From NCBI RefSeq assembly GCF_001999725.1, contig NZ_MDDP01000010.1:372001-436000 (forward strand): a DNA stretch of 64,000 nt. Reading direction: 5' to 3'. The stretch is from Cellulophaga omnivescoria (GTDB lineage Bacteria > Bacteroidota > Bacteroidia > Flavobacteriales > Flavobacteriaceae). Position numbers and translations under genes: made by a program. How positions within the stretch are numbered: the stretch's first letter is position 1; every line of letters begins with the position of its first letter. Shown here one piece after another: positions 16,888 through 44,342 of this stretch. The notes beneath the pieces are model-generated. The model worked only from the letters and a program-made list of their open reading frames with translations, was not told the origin of the DNA and did not search any database.

Positions 16888-16962
16888 TGGCCCATGGTGT
16901 AATTGGCAACACTCCGGTTTTTGGTACCGTCATTCAAGGTTCGAGTCCTTGTGGGCCAACCA
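16888..16962 (+). tRNA. tRNA-Gln (anticodon TTG), CCA encoded
   Basis: The 75-nt cloverleaf has acceptor TGGCCCA/TGGGCCA, D stem GTGT/ACAC, anticodon loop TTTTGGT with anticodon TTG, T arm CAAGG-TTCGAGT-CCTTG, discriminator A and an encoded CCA end. The pair at the top of the anticodon stem (positions 27-43) is a C-T mismatch; the other four pairs are canonical. It is flanked by its own promoter and terminator, a stand-alone unit. Confidence 0.97.
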
Positions 16963-16971
16963 ATGTTAAGT

Positions 16972-17008
16972 AAAGCCCGATATCAATATGGTATCGGGCT
17001 TTTTGTTT
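16972..17008 (+). terminator. Terminator after tRNA-Gln
   Basis: An 11-bp stem (AAAGCCCGATA at 16972-16982 with TATCGGGCTTT at 16992-17002) is followed by TTTGTTTTT. It begins 10 nt past the tRNA and abuts the 3' end of the convergent antiporter gene. Confidence 0.9.
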
Positions 17009-18367
17009 TTAATGGTTTATGTGCTCGTTGTCTTCTGTGTTATCTGTATTATTTTCTTCAAGGTTCTCTAAAGCGGTACTACTGCTTTCGTATTCTTCAT
17101 TGTTTTCATCCGCATTTTCGTCATGAAGTTTGTCTAGTTCGTCTATGTCGTCATCTATTTCATCCAAGATAGTGTTCATTTTGCGTTTGTCTTTAATCAT
17201 AGCAGCTGTCATAATTAAACTTGTGCCAATAATTACAAAAAGTAAAATGCCAGAATCAAAAGTTTCTATTTGTGCTTCTTGTGGTATCGCGTAAAAAAGT
17301 AATACTGTTATTAATCCTCTTGGGGCAATAAATAACTGTGGAAAAATATCGCCACCAACAAAAACACGTAATACAACAAATCTAATGATATATATAGATG
17401 CAATTATTAAAATGCTTGTAATTGCTACGTTTATGCTAAACAAGGATGATATAACTATGGTTATACCAAAAATTACAAAGAAAAATGTACGTACTACAAA
17501 AGCGGTCTCTAATGTTATAATGTGTAGTTCATGATAAATTTGTTCTGCACGCTCTTTGTTTAGGTATTTAGATAAAAACCCACCAAAAAATAAATTCATA
17601 TTAGCAATTATTAATCCAAATATTAAAATAATTATTAACGAGGATAAATGAAATTTTTTACCTAGGGCATATAATAGCAAGAGTACAGCAATTAATAAAA
17701 ACTGTTTTGCTTGTGATTTTATTTGTTGGAAAACCAATATAATGGCGTAGCTAGCAACAATAGATATTGCAATTGTTAGTCCAATGTTTCCGGCAAAACT
17801 TGCAGCTCCATTTCCTGCGTCTTCTGTTGGGTTAAGGTTTCCTGTTAAAAAGTAAAACATCATAATACCCATAATGTCAGAAAATGTGCTTTCGTAAATA
17901 TGGAATTCTTTTTTGTTTTCGGGAAGGCCACTTACACTAGGGATAATAATGGCGCTAGATAAAATAGATAAGGGTGTTGCATATAACCATGCAGATTGCA
18001 TAGTCATGCCTTCTATAAATTGATGTAAAATTAAAGCTGCAACATAGGCGGATGCTATTAAGCCTATAAGGGCAATTGCCATAGATTTTAAAATAGGTAC
18101 TAGTTTTTCTCGCTTTAATTTTAGTTCAAGTGCGGCTTCTAAAACAATCATTATTAGACCAACAATGCCAAGTAGTTCTAGGGACGGAAAAAAGTTAATG
18201 TTGTCTTCTCCTATAAATTCTAAAACATATTTTAGTATAACCCCCAGTACAATGAGCATTAAAACGGAGGGGATGTTGGTTTTTTTAGAAATACCGTTAA
18301 AGAGAAAAGAAATAATAATTATTACTGAAGCGGCTATAATTAGATTGTATGAAGATAATATTTCCAT
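17009..18367 (-). CDS. Cation:proton antiporter (CPA family)
   Basis: The 452-residue protein is an integral membrane antiporter of the Na+/H+ (CPA) type with roughly 11-12 hydrophobic helices over residues 5-385. Family-like features are LEAALELKLKREKLVPI after the third helix, the LYATPLSILSSAIIIPSVSGLP segment in the transport core, and FIAPRGLITVLLFYAIP near the last helices. Residues 386-452 form a strikingly acidic and polar cytoplasmic tail (for example DEIDDDIDELDKLHDE). Ion specificity cannot be judged. It is transcribed away from rimP and converges on tRNA-Gln. The family call is good, the exact subfamily uncertain. Confidence 0.85.
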   Translation of the reverse strand: MEILSSYNLIIAASVIIIISFLFNGISKKTNIPSVLMLIVLGVILKYVLEFIGEDNINFFPSLELLGIVGLIMIVLEAALELKLKREKLVPILKSMAIALIGLIASAYVAALILHQFIEGMTMQSAWLYATPLSILSSAIIIPSVSGLPENKKEFHIYESTFSDIMGIMMFYFLTGNLNPTEDAGNGAASFAGNIGLTIAISIVASYAIILVFQQIKSQAKQFLLIAVLLLLYALGKKFHLSSLIIILIFGLIIANMNLFFGGFLSKYLNKERAEQIYHELHIITLETAFVVRTFFFVIFGITIVISSLFSINVAITSILIIASIYIIRFVVLRVFVGGDIFPQLFIAPRGLITVLLFYAIPQEAQIETFDSGILLFVIIGTSLIMTAAMIKDKRKMNTILDEIDDDIDELDKLHDENADENNEEYESSSTALENLEENNTDNTEDNEHINH

Positions 18368-18458
18368 TTTTGGATGTTAGTTTGTGTTTAGTTTTTAAAA
18401 ATATACATAATTACCTAAACTACAGTTAGGATCACTTTAATTTGTGAAAATTATTATG

Positions 18459-18466
18459 TATCTTTG
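18459..18466 (+). promoter_or_regulatory. -7 promoter box for rimP-nusA-infB
   Basis: TATCTTTG followed by CA is a strong TAnnTTTG match, about 100 nt upstream of rimP. A TTTG at 18441-18444 is only 14 nt away, shorter than normal spacing, so the upstream box is uncertain. Confidence 0.6.
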
Positions 18467-18494
18467 CATCGCTGAAAGAATATAATGTATTCAT

Positions 18495-18520
18495 GAGGGG
18501 ACTTATTAGTCCCCTCTTTT
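18495..18520 (+). terminator. Terminator-like hairpin in the rimP leader (candidate attenuator)
   Basis: A perfect 9-bp stem GAGGGGACT/AGTCCCCTC (18495-18503 and 18508-18516) has a TATT loop and is followed by TTTT. It lies between the -7 box at 18459-18466 and the rimP ATG at 18568, so RNA polymerase would meet it about 20-50 nt into the transcript. The structure is seen directly; its role as attenuator or end of a small RNA is inferred. Confidence 0.65.
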
Positions 18521-18567
18521 ATTAACTATACTTTTTTTGGTTTAATAAAATTTCTGTAAAAAGAGTT

Positions 18568-19032
18568 ATGTTTAAAGAGCAAGTTACATCTTTGTTAGAA
18601 GGGGCTTTAAAAGAAAACCCATCGTTATTCTTAATAGATTTTACAATAACACCAGACTTTAAAATTAATATAGTTTTAGATGGGGATAACGGTGTTACAC
18701 TTAAGGATTGTGTGGCGGTGAGTAGAGCTATAGATCACAACTTAGATAGAGAAGAACAAGATTTTTCTGTAGAGGTTGCTTCGGCAGGAGCATCTTCTCC
18801 TTTAGTTTTGCCAAGGCAATACAAAAAAAATATTGGTAGAAAATTAGAGGTAAAAACAATAGAAGGTCGTAATTTTGAAGGAGAATTAACTGCTGCTACG
18901 GAAGAAACTATTACATTGGAGTGGAAAGCGAGAGAGCAAAAGCCCATTGGTAAAGGAAAAGTGACCGTTCAGAAAAAAGAAGAAATTTTATTTTCTGATA
19001 TTAAGGAGGCAAAAGTTATATTAAAATTTTAA
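18568..19032 (+). CDS. rimP: Ribosome maturation factor RimP
   Basis: RimP assists late assembly of the 30S subunit. The 154-residue product shows the family's arrangement: an N-terminal domain with IDFTITPDFKINIVLDGDNGVTLKDC, the motif CVAVSRAIDHNLDR, VEVASAGASSPL (the usual EVSSPG-like turn), then an SH3-like C-terminal domain beginning GRKLEVKTIEGRNFEGEL. It is the first gene of rimP-nusA-infB, with 13 nt to nusA. Expression may depend on read-through of the hairpin at 18495-18520. Confidence 0.95.
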   Translation: MFKEQVTSLLEGALKENPSLFLIDFTITPDFKINIVLDGDNGVTLKDCVAVSRAIDHNLDREEQDFSVEVASAGASSPLVLPRQYKKNIGRKLEVKTIEGRNFEGELTAATEETITLEWKAREQKPIGKGKVTVQKKEEILFSDIKEAKVILKF

Positions 19033-19045
19033 TAAATAAATCAAT

Positions 19046-20278
19046 ATGGAAAATATTGCGCTAATAGAATCTTTCTCAGAATTTAAGGATGATAAATTCA
19101 TAGATAGGGTAACGTTAATGGCAATTTTGGAAGAAGTATTTCGTAATGCTTTGAAAAAGAAATTTGGTTCTGATGATAACTTTGATATCATTATAAATCC
19201 AGATAAAGGGGATTTAGAAATATGGAGAAACCGTATTGTTGTTGAAGATGGAGAAGTAGAAGAACCTAATGAGGAGATTTCATTAACAGATGCGCGCAAG
19301 ATTGAACCAGATTTTGAAGTAGGAGAAGATGTATCTGAAGAGGTTAAGCTTATAGATTTAGGTAGACGTGCAATTTTAGCTTTGCGTCAAAATTTGATTG
19401 CTAAAATTCACGAGCATGATAATACTACAATTTATAAGCAATTTAAGGATTTAGAAGGAGAAATATATACAGCAGAGGTTCATCATATTAGGCACAGAGC
19501 TGTAATTTTAGTAGATGATGAAGGTAATGAAATAGTGATGCCTAAGGATAGACAGATACCTTCAGATTTCTTTAGAAAGGGTGATAATGTCCGTGGTATT
19601 ATAGAGAGTGTAGAGTTAAAAGGTAATAAGCCTTCTATCATTATGTCTAGAACATCACCTAAATTTTTAGAACAATTGTTTTTTCAAGAGATACCAGAGG
19701 TTTTTGATGGTTTAATTACTATTAAAAAAGCTGTTCGTATCCCGGGAGAAAAAGCAAAAGTAGCTGTAGATTCTTATGATGATCGTATAGATCCTGTAGG
19801 TGCTTGTGTGGGTGTTAAGGGGTCTAGGATACATGGTATTGTTAGAGAATTAGGTAATGAGAATATTGATGTTGTTAACTGGACAAGCAATCCGCAGTTG
19901 CTTGTAACAAGAGCATTAAGTCCTGCAAAGATATCATCTGTTAAATTAAACGAAGAGAAGAAAACGGCTCAAGTTTACTTAAAACCAGACGAGGTTTCAA
20001 GAGCAATTGGTAGGGGTGGTCATAATATTAGATTGGCAGGACAATTAACTGGTTATGAAATTGATGTATTCCGTGAAGGAGTAGAAGAGGATGTTGAGTT
20101 AACAGAGTTCTCTGATGAAATTGATAACTGGATTATAGAAGAATTTAAGAAGATTGGTTTAGATACGGCAAGAAGCGTATTGGAGCAAGATTCTGAAGAT
20201 TTAGCAAAGCGTACAGATTTAGAAGTTGAAACTATTTTAGAAGTTGTACGCATACTTAAAGAAGAATTAGAAGATTAA
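19046..20278 (+). CDS. nusA: Transcription termination/antitermination factor NusA
   Basis: NusA binds RNA polymerase and modulates pausing, termination and antitermination. The 410-residue product has the N-terminal polymerase-binding domain (LIESFSEFKDDKFIDRVTLMAILEE), an S1 domain near residues 130-200, and two KH domains. These include GACVGVKGSRIHGIVRELGNE near 255 and AIGRGGHNIRLAGQLTGYEID near 325, both with the GxxG loop. It lacks the long C-terminal acidic repeats of gammaproteobacterial NusA and ends after a short helical region, as usual outside that group. It lies between rimP and infB, 41 nt before infB. Confidence 0.97.
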   Translation: MENIALIESFSEFKDDKFIDRVTLMAILEEVFRNALKKKFGSDDNFDIIINPDKGDLEIWRNRIVVEDGEVEEPNEEISLTDARKIEPDFEVGEDVSEEVKLIDLGRRAILALRQNLIAKIHEHDNTTIYKQFKDLEGEIYTAEVHHIRHRAVILVDDEGNEIVMPKDRQIPSDFFRKGDNVRGIIESVELKGNKPSIIMSRTSPKFLEQLFFQEIPEVFDGLITIKKAVRIPGEKAKVAVDSYDDRIDPVGACVGVKGSRIHGIVRELGNENIDVVNWTSNPQLLVTRALSPAKISSVKLNEEKKTAQVYLKPDEVSRAIGRGGHNIRLAGQLTGYEIDVFREGVEEDVELTEFSDEIDNWIIEEFKKIGLDTARSVLEQDSEDLAKRTDLEVETILEVVRILKEELED

Positions 20279-20319
20279 GCTATATATTAGCAAAAATTTA
20301 AGAATACGAATACTTGTTT

Positions 20320-23169
20320 ATGGCAGAGAATGCAACAATAAGGCTCAATAAGGTCCTCAGGGAATTAAATATTTCTTTAGATAGGGCTATAGACCACCTT
20401 TCGTCCAAAGGACATGAGGTGGAGGCAAGGCCTACTACTAAGATTTCCAATGAGGTATACCAAGTTCTTTTGGATGAGTTCCAAACAGACATGAGTAAGA
20501 AAGTTGCTTCTAAGGAAGTTGGCGAGGAAAAACGTAAAGAAAAAGAAGCGCTTAGATTGCAATTGGAACAAGAGCAAGAAGAAAAGCGTTTGGCAAGAGA
20601 AAAAAGAGCAGCTGCGCAAGAAGTTGTTAGAGCAAAGGCAGAATTGTCTGGGCCAAAGACTGTTGGTAAAATAGATCTTGATTCCGGTAAAAATAAGCCA
20701 GCTCCTGCAGAAGAAAAACCAGCTCCAAAAGAAGAAAAACCTGTTGAGGTAGAAAAGCCTAAGGTAAAAGAAGAGTCTAAGCCGGTTGAAAAGCCAGTTG
20801 TTAAGGAGTCTTCTACGGTTAAAACAGGTAAGGTAGAGTTGCCTGGTCCTAAAACTGTTGGTAAAATAGATTTAGATGCTGGAAAAAAGAAGCCAGTGGC
20901 TAAAAAACCAGTTCCTGTTAAAAAAGAGGAACCTAAACCAAAGGTAGAGGCAGAGAAAAAGCCAGAGGAGGCAAAGGAGACGGAAGCTAAGGAAAATACT
21001 GTGATAACTACTCAGTATCAGAAGCTATCTGGTCCTAAGCTTACAGGTGCAAAAATTGACTTATCTAAGTTTAATAAGCCTAAAAAGAAAGAAGCTCCTA
21101 AAAACACAGGTGCTGCTGGGGCGGATAAGAAAAAGCGTCGTAAAAGAATTGTTAGTAATAATAAGCCTGGTGGTAATAATAGACCTGGTGGTCAAGGTGG
21201 CAATAGAGGTAAAGGTGGTCAAGGAAAAGGGAGGTTTAATGCTCCTGTTGTAAAGGTTGAGCCTACTGAAGAAGAAGTGCAAAAGCAGGTTAGAGAAACT
21301 TTGGAGAAACTTCAAGGGAAATCTAAAAAAGGTAAAGGTGCTAAGTACAGAAGAGATAAAAGAGATCAACACCGTCAGCAGACAGAGAAAGATTTAGAGA
21401 AACAGGAAGCAGAAAGTAAAATCCTTAAGGTAACAGAGTTTGTTACTGTTGGTGAGGTTGCAACTATGATGGAGGTTTCTAGTACACAAATCATTTCTGC
21501 ATGTATGTCTTTAGGGATTATGGTAACAATGAATCAGCGTTTAGATGCTGAGACATTGTCTATAGTAGCTGAGGAATTTGGTTATGAGGTTGAGTTTATT
21601 GCTGCTGAGATTGAAGAGTCTATTGTAGAAGAAGAAGATGCGCCAGAAGATTTAAAAGAAAGAGCTCCTATTGTTACTGTAATGGGACACGTAGATCATG
21701 GTAAAACATCTTTACTAGATTACATACGTAAAGAAAATGTAATTGCTGGTGAAAGTGGTGGTATTACGCAACACATTGGTGCATATGGTGTGCAGTTAGA
21801 TAATGGACAAAAAATTGCGTTCTTAGATACTCCGGGTCACGAGGCCTTTACGGCTATGCGTGCACGTGGTGCTCAGGTAACGGATATTGCAATTATAGTT
21901 ATTGCGGCAGATGATGATATTATGCCACAAACAAAAGAAGCAATTAGTCATGCTCAAGCTGCAGGTGTTCCTATTGTTTTTGCTATAAATAAGATTGATA
22001 GGCCAACGGCTAACCCAGATAAAATTAAAGAAGGTCTAGCGCAAATGAATTTATTAGTTGAAGATTGGGGAGGTAAAATACAATCTCAAGATATCTCGGC
22101 TAAAAAAGGAACGGGTGTTAAAGAGCTTTTAGAAAAAGTATTGTTAGAGGCAGAGTTGTTAGAGTTAAAAGCTAACCCTAAAAAACTTGCATCTGGTACT
22201 GTTGTTGAGGCTTTCTTGGATAAAGGTAGGGGTTACGTTTCTACAATTTTAGTGCAGGCAGGTACGCTTAAGATAGGAGATTATGTTTTAGCGGGTACTT
22301 GTAGTGGTAAAATTAAGGCAATGCAAGATGAACGAGGTAATAATGTTCAGAAAGTAGGTCCTTCAACACCAATATCTATTTTAGGTTTAGATGGTGCACC
22401 GCAAGCAGGTGATAAGTTTAATGTTTTAGAAGATGAACGTGAGGCTAAGCAAATTGCTTCTAAGCGTTCTCAATTACAAAGAGAGCAATCTGTACGTACT
22501 CAACGTCATATTACACTAGATGAAATTGGTAGACGTATTGCTCTAGGAGACTTTAAGGAGCTTAATATTATACTTAAAGGTGATGTTGATGGTTCTGTTG
22601 AGGCGTTAACGGATTCTTTCCAGAAGCTATCTACAGAGGAGATACAAGTAAATATTATACATAAAGCGGTTGGTCCTATTACAGAGTCTGATGTGTTGTT
22701 AGCTTCGGCTTCTGATGCAATTATTATCGGATTTAATGTTAGGCCAATGGGTAATGCAAGAGCAATTGCAGAAAAAGAAGAAATAGATATTAGAATGTAT
22801 TCTATTATTTATGCAGCAATTAATGATCTTAAGGATGCTATGGAGGGTATGCTTTCTCCAGAGATGAAAGAAGAGATTCTTGGTACTGCAGAGATACGTG
22901 AAACCTTTAAAATATCTAAGGTTGGTACAATTGCTGGTTGTATGGTGTTAACTGGTAAATTGGTTAGGAATGCAGGTATACGTTTAATACGTGATGGTGT
23001 GGTAATATACACAGGTGAGCTTGCTTCTTTAAAACGATTTAAGGACGATGCTAAAGAGGTTGCTAAAGGGTATGATTGTGGTCTTCAGGTTAAGAACTAC
23101 AATGATATTAAGGAAGGTGATATAGTTGAAGCTTTCCAAGAGGTAGCAGTTAAAAAGAAATTGAAATAA
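20320..23169 (+). CDS. infB: Translation initiation factor IF-2
   Basis: IF-2 is the GTPase that places initiator tRNA on the 30S subunit and promotes subunit joining. I start it at ATG 20320 ([16 protein letters not shown], 949 residues); a TTG two codons earlier is less likely. The N-terminal IF2 module (1-60) is followed by a charged helix and a Lys/Pro/Glu-rich linker (about 110-350) holding three copies of a GPK-GKIDL motif and a Gly/Arg stretch. The G domain begins with GHVDHGKTS at 456, then DTPGHEAF (switch II) and NKID. Domains II, III and C2 follow. A strong terminator ends the operon. Confidence 0.97.
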
Positions 23170-23184
23170 TAATTTCTAAATTAT

Positions 23185-23226
23185 AAAACAAAAGAGCGAC
23201 TCAGAAAAGAGTCGCTCTTTTGTTTT
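23185..23226. terminator. Bidirectional terminator between infB and SPOR gene
   Basis: An 18-bp perfect stem (23185-23202 with 23209-23226) has an AGAAAA loop, is GC-rich in the middle and has A/T-rich ends. It ends infB on the plus strand and the SPOR gene on the minus strand. Confidence 0.92.
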
Positions 23227-23241
23227 GTGTTAATCTAGTAT

Positions 23242-23607
23242 TTAATCCTTTTGATTAGATATTAATATTGCTGCTGGATATTTTGTTTTAACTGTCTTTA
23301 GTTTCTGTTGAGCTTCACTTATGTTATTGAAGTTGCCAAGTGTAATGCTGTGTATGTTTTGGTTGCTAGTTAGCTTAGTGCTTATTCCTGGGAAATTCCT
23401 TTTTGCTTCAGATTTTATTTTATTGGCTTCGGCTATGGTTGTGCTTTGGTGTATTTGTATGGCGAAGGGAGGAGCTAGTAATGTGTTTTGGTTAATTGTT
23501 GTTGTTTTGTTATCTCCTTTGTTTAATATTTCGGTTTCTTGAGCAAAAGATAAGCTGCAACAAAATGTTATTAAAAATAGACTGATGTAGATTTTTGTTT
23601 TTTTCAT
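23242..23607 (-). CDS. Exported SPOR-domain protein
   Basis: SPOR domains bind denuded peptidoglycan glycan strands. This 121-residue protein has a signal peptide (to about residue 22, ending LSFAQE), a short Thr/Asn-rich stretch, and a single SPOR-like domain from about 45 on: FAIQIHQSTTIAEANKIKSE, SITLGNFNNISEAQQKLKTV and KYPAAILISNQKD. It is a paralogue of the next gene (23739-24110) in the same direction. The two share the IQIH start, the FN-x-EAQQKL helix and the YPxAxLIxxQK end. A terminator separates them, so they are probably transcribed separately. Role likely periplasmic and cell-wall linked, by inference. Confidence 0.75.
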   Translation of the reverse strand: MKKTKIYISLFLITFCCSLSFAQETEILNKGDNKTTTINQNTLLAPPFAIQIHQSTTIAEANKIKSEAKRNFPGISTKLTSNQNIHSITLGNFNNISEAQQKLKTVKTKYPAAILISNQKD

Positions 23608-23683
23608 TTGTATTGGGTTTTGTTCCTTATAAAATTAGCGTTTTATTTTATGATGTGAAAATTTGTCTAAATGTGTGATGTAA

Positions 23684-23719
23684 AAAAAAGAGCAACTTAT
23701 TTACAAGTTGCTCTTTTTT
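23684..23719. terminator. Terminator between the two SPOR genes
   Basis: A 15-bp stem (23684-23698 with 23705-23719) carries the GAGCAACTT core and a 6-nt loop, with T run on the minus strand. It lies just past the stop of the 23739-24110 gene. Confidence 0.88.
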
Positions 23720-23738
23720 AGGGTGTAATTTTATTTGT

Positions 23739-24110
23739 TTATTCTTCTTTTTGGTCTGCAATTAATAAGGCGTTTGGATATTCTTTTTTAACTTCTATTA
23801 ATTTTTGTTGAGCCTCAAACTTGGTGTTGAATTTTCCAATAGTTACTTTGTAATATTCGTTAATAAAATCTAAAGTTGAAGGCCAATCTGGGAATTCTTT
23901 TGCTGCTTTTTCTTTGGCATTTTGTGCGCCTTGTGATGCTTTGCTAGAGTGTATTTGTATGGTGTAATATCTAGATGTTTTGTTGCTTTCCTTGTAAAGG
24001 TTTAAAAGCTTTTCTAGTCCTTCGTCTTGCTTTAGTGTTACTTGTCCTTCTTGGGCAAGACAAAAAGCGCTAAAACCTAAGCATAGTAAACTAGTATAGA
24101 ATGTTTTCAT
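23739..24110 (-). CDS. Exported SPOR-domain protein, paralogue
   Basis: This 123-residue protein has a signal peptide (MKTFYTSLLCLGFSAFCLAQ), then a short helix (EGLEKLLNLYKESNKTSRYY), then a SPOR-like domain: YTIQIHSSKASQGAQNAKEK, YKVTIGKFNTKFEAQQKLIE and EYPNALLIADQKEE. The close match of domain order and ends with the gene at 23242-23607 points to tandem duplication. Peptidoglycan binding is expected for the family but not proven. It is divergent from actA; 230 bp lie between the starts. Confidence 0.75.
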   Translation of the reverse strand: MKTFYTSLLCLGFSAFCLAQEGQVTLKQDEGLEKLLNLYKESNKTSRYYTIQIHSSKASQGAQNAKEKAAKEFPDWPSTLDFINEYYKVTIGKFNTKFEAQQKLIEVKKEYPNALLIADQKEE

Positions 24111-41929: not shown

Positions 41930-41963
41930 AAGTTGCTTTTAAGTTAGGGATTGTAGTGGCATC

Positions 41964-42032
41964 CTTTTGCTTTTTTTTAGCAAAAGATATAACGGAAAGC
42001 CCGCCTACGCCTTACTTTGTAAAAGGCGTAGG
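41964..42032. repeat. Twin inverted repeats downstream of thiC
   Basis: In the 115-nt gap between thiC and the TenI-like gene are two hairpins: CTTTTGCT/AGCAAAAG (41964-41971 and 41979-41986, seven-T loop) and CCTACGCCTT/AAGGCGTAGG (42004-42013 and 42023-42032). Between them is AACGGAAAGCCCG. Neither ends in a T run on the minus strand, so this does not look like an ordinary terminator. It resembles dispersed intergenic elements of flavobacteria, but only one copy is in the window. Confidence 0.5.
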
Positions 42033-44132: not shown

Positions 44133-44256
44133 AACGATACATTTTAAGTGCTAGGTTATAGCGTTAAAAAATCCAACTAAATCGTAAACTGTGTGTGAAA
44201 ATGCATTCTCCAGAAACGGAAAAAACACTAAAAGATAGAAATCATAAAAAGAATTC

Positions 44257-44335
44257 AACTTTTCCCTTCGGCTGTACTAACAGCATCAGGTTCAAAGGGT
44301 ATTTCTCAGTTCTTAAAAAGAACACCCCTAAAGTT
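44257..44335 (-). promoter_or_regulatory. TPP riboswitch aptamer (THI element)
   Basis: On the minus strand the sequence runs AACTTT-AGGGGTG, then CTGAGA, ACCC-TTTGAACCTGAT, CTGTT-AGTACAG and CGAAGGGAAAAGTT. This contains the conserved THI-box features: GGGGTG, CTGAGA, GAACCTGAT and the GAAGGGAA end, with P1 pairing AACTTT (44330-44335) to AAAAGTT (44257-44263). It controls the thi operon; 124 nt separate it from the thiS start. No clear terminator is seen in that space, so control of translation or of an unrecognised structure is possible. Confidence 0.96.
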
Positions 44336-44342
44336 TACTTAA

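Follow-up and report, generated by a model that had tools for sequence, protein, structure and literature searches.

The 64,000-nt stretch of Cellulophaga omnivescoria DNA analyzed here (the window) carries a rimP-nusA-infB operon, each gene scoring above the cut-off of its curated model (Table 1), in agreement with the operon identity given in an earlier, sequence-only reading of this DNA. infB begins either at the listed TTG (20314) or at the ATG at 20320, and the gene at 17009-18367 on the minus strand is divergent from the operon. The leader harbors a TAnnTTTG box, the motif that the pertinent part of PMC9723704 reports as the sigma-A -7 consensus of Flavobacterium psychrophilum, and we infer that transcription starts a few nt 3' of TATCTTTG. 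Positioned 28 nt past the box is a hairpin that a pattern scan resolved into 9 pairs, 6 of them G-C, with a loop of 4; the predicted energy of the 18493-18525 fold, -17.6 kcal/mol, was not reached by any of 200 shuffles (z -4.81). The sequence-only reading had placed a box, a 28-nt gap, a perfect 9-bp GC-rich hairpin and a TTTT in this leader, and all of these are present where it put them. It was also right in locating the hairpin before rimP but not in the distance of 48 nt, as 47 nt separate the TTTT from the ATG of rimP and 51 nt separate the stem from that ATG (18568). A sigma-70-like site at 18522-18551 was rejected because the region has no more such sites than chance would give (24 vs. 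24.9 expected). The Rfam matches in the window are three, namely a TPP riboswitch (44246-44339, minus strand), a Flavo-1 RNA (41938-42010, plus strand) and a tRNA (16888-16959, plus strand).

Table 1. Features of the rimP-nusA-infB leader and operon, in window coordinates.
Feature	Position	Strand	Basis or detail
-7 promoter box TATCTTTG (TAnnTTTG)	18459-18466	+	sequence
Weak A+U-rich hairpin GAAUAU...GUAUUC, directly 5' of the putative terminator stem	18478-18492	+	fold
Putative terminator stem-loop	18495-18516	+	5' arm GAGGGGACT (18495-18503), loop TATT, 3' arm AGTCCCCTC (18508-18516)
T tract TTTTATT (TTTT = 18517-18520)	18517-18523	+	sequence
rimP, operon gene 1	18568-19032	+	NF002531, 217.8 bits (cut-off 123)
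nusA, proposed feedback target and source	19046-20278	+	TIGR01953, 364.9 bits (cut-off 253.4)
infB (IF2)	20314-23169	+	TIGR00487, 823.2 bits (cut-off 424.4)

Recognizing that the region from 17000 to 24000 is mildly enriched for terminator-like patterns (6 found vs. 2.9 +/- 2.0 expected), one may ask if the hairpin arose by chance or terminates a gene upstream. However, among the 122 TAnnTTTG boxes of the whole window (75 and 47 on the two strands), only the one at 18459-18466 has a hairpin above threshold in the next 70 nt; the hairpin is not the terminator of the gene at 17009-18367 because that gene is divergent; and both readings are contradicted by conservation in the genus, the family and the class, as described below. 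We consider them exceedingly improbable.

The expectation that the hairpin would be conserved in related genomes was borne out. The exact motif occurs once per genome, before rimP, in 18/18 genomes of the genus, which is probably Cellulophaga, as several of these leaders match by eye those of named Cellulophaga loci. The hairpin is found in 110/110 family leader rows (99 unique segments), a collection whose named and unnamed sets share members and in which the closest relatives found account for 80 rows. Its 5' arm reads GAGGGGAC in 108/110 family leaders and GAGGGGGC in the other 2; past the C/T that ends the stem, the first two T are invariant and the next two at least 90% conserved in a 71-row family alignment. 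No both-sided pair change was found within family stems, only one-sided changes to G-U. The exact pattern lies at one place per genome in 50/60 family genomes, and 15 of these 50 sites, compared with RimP matches by eye through their coordinates, all adjoin rimP. As for the 10 genomes devoid of the exact pattern, G003, G004, G022 and G040 have no RimP match either, G020, G045 and G052 carry altered hairpins (L207, L210 and L211), and the leaders of G016, G035 and G058 lay outside the inspection. Exact motif searches of the 18 genus and 50 family genomes revealed no stem signature beyond the single site.

With respect to spacing, the hairpin is nearly fixed to the promoter box but varies in its distance to the start codon, in the family as in the genus. 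The box-to-stem gap is 28 nt in 17/18 genus genomes and 29 nt in 1/18, and 25-30 nt in 109/110 family rows, the 11 nt of the remaining row (L018) possibly reflecting that another TAnnTTTG box had been picked. In contrast, the stem-to-ATG distance in the genus is 17 nt in 11/18 genomes and 50-51 nt in 7/18, the window included, and the hairpin-to-start-codon distance spans 10-127 nt over the 110 family rows, as counted from two T past the stem. In these 7 genomes, ~33 additional nt lie in the spacer from hairpin to ATG (18521-18567 in the window) and are well conserved among them. This geometry bears on the idea that the hairpin works not as a terminator but as a 5' stem-loop, either guarding the message or influencing how translation starts. 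By the same way of counting, the stem ends 10-22 nt from the start codon region in 90/110 family leaders, as would suit such a role; on the other hand, a distance that varies to the start codon and is near-fixed to the box, together with conservation of the T tract right after the stem, argues against it, and we regard this role as unlikely.

Directly before the stem, a weak fold is common in the family: when the 25-nt stretch before the stem was examined at a limit of -1 kcal/mol, 84% of 93 unique family leaders folded at this energy or better vs. 38% of shuffles, and no excess was seen in 61 class-level leaders (52% vs. 51% of shuffles).

Conservation extends well beyond the family. In a far set of 90 leaders, comprising 69 at the order or class level (30 loci plus 20 and 19 regions) and 21 further ones from the family, a terminator-like hairpin exceeded the threshold in 80 (61/69 and 19/21, respectively), vs. 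11 of 1800 dinucleotide shuffles of these leaders. A TAnnTTTG box lies 5-30 nt 5' of the hairpin in 78 of these 80 leaders and a GGG...CCC stem is found in 74 of the 80 detected hairpins, with the exact GGGGAC...GTCCCC in 36/69 order/class leaders and GAGGGGAC in 16/21 of the added family leaders. Among the 10 leaders below threshold, L145, L153, L172, L187, L190, L207 and L211 display weaker, mismatched or wide-loop hairpins by eye; L167 has a GGGGAC hairpin further upstream, outside the tested stretch; and L178 and L182 have no convincing hairpin in the leader, by score or by eye. The top-scoring hairpin is a different one in L131, L144 and L160, of which L144 and L160 also contain the GGGGAC hairpin.

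Since the 77 stems and T tails compared at this level were chosen by the finder, and hence selected for pairing, their pairing rate and T content carry no weight, and the evidence lies in the double changes. Both-sided changes with pairing kept amount to 44 cells in the 77 stems, or 26 with the outermost pair excluded, as exemplified by GAGCGGAC/GTCCGCTC in L210 and GAGGGGAT/ATCCCCTC in L196; these pairs were counted by script, since MAFFT misaligned the class-wide hairpins at their 5' arms. A pairing test free of selection yielded a perfect 6-nt complement in 57/84 leaders but in only 6/31 of those with a non-consensus core; as its rule, judged by eye, often picked the wrong GGG or a loop base, we let it weigh neither for nor against pairing.

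In other classes of the phylum, where 26 new leaders (L233-L258) were gathered and 25 scanned (L234 being left out), 18/25 reach the same hairpin score, as counted without a shuffle control, and L249 falls just below. Nothing was scored in L236, L241, L243, L245, L247 and L255; visual inspection shows a wide-loop stem in at least three of these (L236, L241 and L245). In L244, L250 and L257 the hairpin match is away from the expected place. The stems in these classes are wholly different in sequence, e.g., GAAAGTCCCGC/GCGGGACTTTT, AAAGTGGGG/CCCCACTTT and TCGCCC/GGGCGA. Judging from these comparisons, the shape of a terminator seems to be kept at depth, its letters not.

To see which gene the hairpin stays with, we turn to genomes in which the operon is incomplete. 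nusA was sought in 28 genomes devoid of a RimP match; 20 gave nusA, and in 15 of these the locus extends upstream of nusA and shows no rimP there. They comprise three small-genome Flavobacteriaceae (L214, L215, L216), L217-L219 of group f48, L222 of f29, L223-L228 of f23, and L230 and L232 of f63; RimP was not detected in f23 (6/6 genomes), f48 (3/3), f63 (2/2) and f29 (1/1). Five of the 20 nusA loci were set aside, including L213 (contig end 45 nt upstream), L220 (rimP inferred from its genus) and L231 (masked); L221 and L229 contain a diverged rimP as judged by tblastn and so stand outside the rimP-less count. A box and a hairpin with a T tract are positioned directly before nusA in 15/15 rimP-less loci, these being loci and not independent losses, in genomes where a diverged RimP elsewhere may have escaped detection. 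Eleven were detected by pattern and 4 by eye (L216, and L217-L219 with a GGAGG...CCTCC form), the box of L214 is one letter off (TATATTCG), and infB follows nusA in all 15. In the three small-genome Flavobacteriaceae, the nusA leader is immediately preceded by a tRNA-Gln gene.

The converse arrangement is found in two genomes of one genus (G251 and G285, leaders L259 and L260), where infB is on another contig and not after nusA, 851 nt 3' of nusA being covered in G285. GAGGAGC-loop-GCCCCTC, with a single A-C mismatch, is retained in both leaders together with a T tract and a TATCTTTG box. The place of infB behind rimP-nusA is taken in L259 by a long open frame of 1206 codons whose beginning resembles an SbcC-type ATPase by eye. 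As far as gene order can tell, the common partner of the hairpin is nusA; only a single genus uncouples IF2 from nusA.

These findings have to be weighed against the view that the terminator is real but does not owe its efficiency to NusA, i.e., that it is a fixed level-setter or is read by RimP, IF2 or another RNA-binding protein. A near-invariant GAGGGGAC arm in the family suits a sequence-reading protein, and RimP is also mentioned as a possible regulator by Naville and Gautheret (PMC2965389). Yet the hairpin is retained at every rimP-less locus and in the two genomes with an unlinked infB, and the stem sequences of other classes of the phylum are quite different; we deem control without NusA possible but doubtful.

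What, then, could set the efficiency of such a terminator? Attenuation by a leader peptide would call for the short frame overlapping the stem (18493-18525, MRGLISPLFY), and in the window, as in 70/93 unique family leaders, an ATG does overlap the start of the stem. However, this ATG is absent in the other 23, loop lengths of 4-7 nt put the frame out of register, and the 70 leaders encode 52 different peptides within the first 14 residues; given that no reading frame is conserved across the 93 unique family leaders, we rejected a leader-peptide attenuator as very unlikely. An antiterminator fold was likewise rejected for want of any excess of complement to the 5' arm: within the upstream 25 nt, the longest such complement is 3 or less in 90/93 family leaders, the shuffled mean being 3.46. 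A terminator with neither a competing fold nor a conserved peptide implies an efficiency that is set in trans or not set at all, and for a trans-acting setter NusA would be the natural candidate.

Known systems lend weight to this candidate. The rimP-leader attenuator of Naville and Gautheret (2010, PMC2965389), as far as its description there bears on ours, resembles the present leader in: 1) residing in the 5' UTR of rimP-nusA-infB with a terminator-like hairpin; 2) having a G-rich 5' arm, a C-rich 3' arm and a T stretch (GGGG/CCCC and TTTT in the window); 3) showing no visible antiterminator, either there or here; 4) bearing a signature specific to that leader, matched here by a single site per genome for the exact motif; and 5) placing the terminator 4-130 nt before the gene, as compared with 51 nt in the window and 10-127 nt in the family. 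NusA was proposed there as the regulator. The stem differs, GAGGGGAC/GTCCCCTC here vs. a quoted motif of GGGc(...)gCCC; set against that wording, GGGGAC...GTCCCC of the window has the C-G pair, with an A-U pair between it and the G run. The words 'Bacteroidetes' and 'Flavobacter' are absent from the main text of PMC2965389. We have filed the leader as one of the rimP-leader kind with its own stem sequence.

Rfam family RF01770 (rimP) shares the position and the gene in E. coli, but a search of the window leader with it stayed empty up to an E-value of 5, and no match exceeded the gathering score in 21 genomes, where its weak whole-genome matches look like chance terminators; with no match at the window leader, Rfam families including RF01770 were rejected as its identity. 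For E. coli, the relevant part of PMC6511841 describes two terminators upstream of rimP and names NusA as a regulator of the operon; read by eye, the E. coli leader before rimP contains GGGC-TTTAG-GCCC and a T run. Closer to Cellulophaga, a structured 5' element upstream of rimP was mentioned in 2021 for F. psychrophilum, present also in other Flavobacteriaceae genera and without Rfam hits (PMC9723704). It is very probably the same element as the window hairpin, although in the pertinent part of that paper it is named in one sentence and without a mechanism.

Two further precedents concern function. In B. subtilis, NusA stimulates termination in the leader of its own operon, according to the relevant section of a 2025 review (PMC12288461); the likeness would lie in an intrinsic terminator in a nusA-operon leader with an efficiency set by NusA, the evidence being experimental there vs. 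inferential here. In S. agalactiae, RNA-seq placed termination of gbs0413-gbs0418 (rimP-nusA) 31 nt past the start and NusA feedback was proposed, as set out in the part of PMC4448216 on this operon; a very short RNA ending at a predicted intrinsic terminator before rimP is what the two cases would share. The passages of PMC8060035, PMC7366714 and PMC10994844 that were searched hold nothing on the leader examined here.

Taken together, we favor as the probable explanation that the hairpin is a promoter-proximal intrinsic terminator strengthened by NusA in a negative feedback. Under this scheme, the hairpin and T tract would act as an intrinsic terminator ~45-50 nt past the start of the rimP-nusA-infB message, where a share of RNA polymerases would stop. 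Plentiful NusA would help the hairpin form and lengthen the pause, with fewer polymerases reaching the genes, and scarce NusA would permit more read-through; NusA would thus be under negative feedback, which RimP and IF2, encoded in the same message, would share. We have counted the short and interrupted T tract (TTTTATT) against the terminator reading. With regard to the attenuation claimed in the sequence-only reading, a conserved attenuator-like leader terminator is well supported by comparison, precedent and the staying of the hairpin with nusA without rimP, and termination itself remains a prediction here. The accompanying notion of NusA-dependent read-through probably has the sign reversed, the likely one being more NusA, more termination, because the B. 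subtilis precedent is NusA-stimulated termination. The separate small RNA that it had raised as another option would be unneeded, as the terminated RNA of ~45-50 nt would be a by-product.

A plain NusA-stimulated terminator leaves it unexplained that the 5' arm is near-frozen in the closest relatives when stems of other sequence serve in other classes. The GAGGGGAC arm could be a recognition sequence, or it could reflect shared ancestry with strong constraint. We speculate, with low confidence, that in this class the GGGGAC/GUCCCC stem, beyond acting as a terminator, is a recognition element in the nascent RNA that is read by NusA or by the NusA-RNA polymerase complex. If true, recognition of this kind would explain the near-frozen arm, the staying with nusA after rimP loss and the single motif per genome, and the leader of its own operon would supply NusA with an RNA ligand specific to the lineage.

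What the present analysis adds is the anatomy across the class, the near-fixed distance to the promoter and the link to nusA where rimP has been lost, none of which turned up in searches of the open-licence literature. A NusA feedback at this leader, if it operates as we propose, would extend a known, little-studied switch on a core transcription factor to a large bacterial class in which it has hardly been described, with rimP loss and infB unlinking serving as a natural experiment that points to NusA, and not RimP or IF2, as the beneficiary of the switch.
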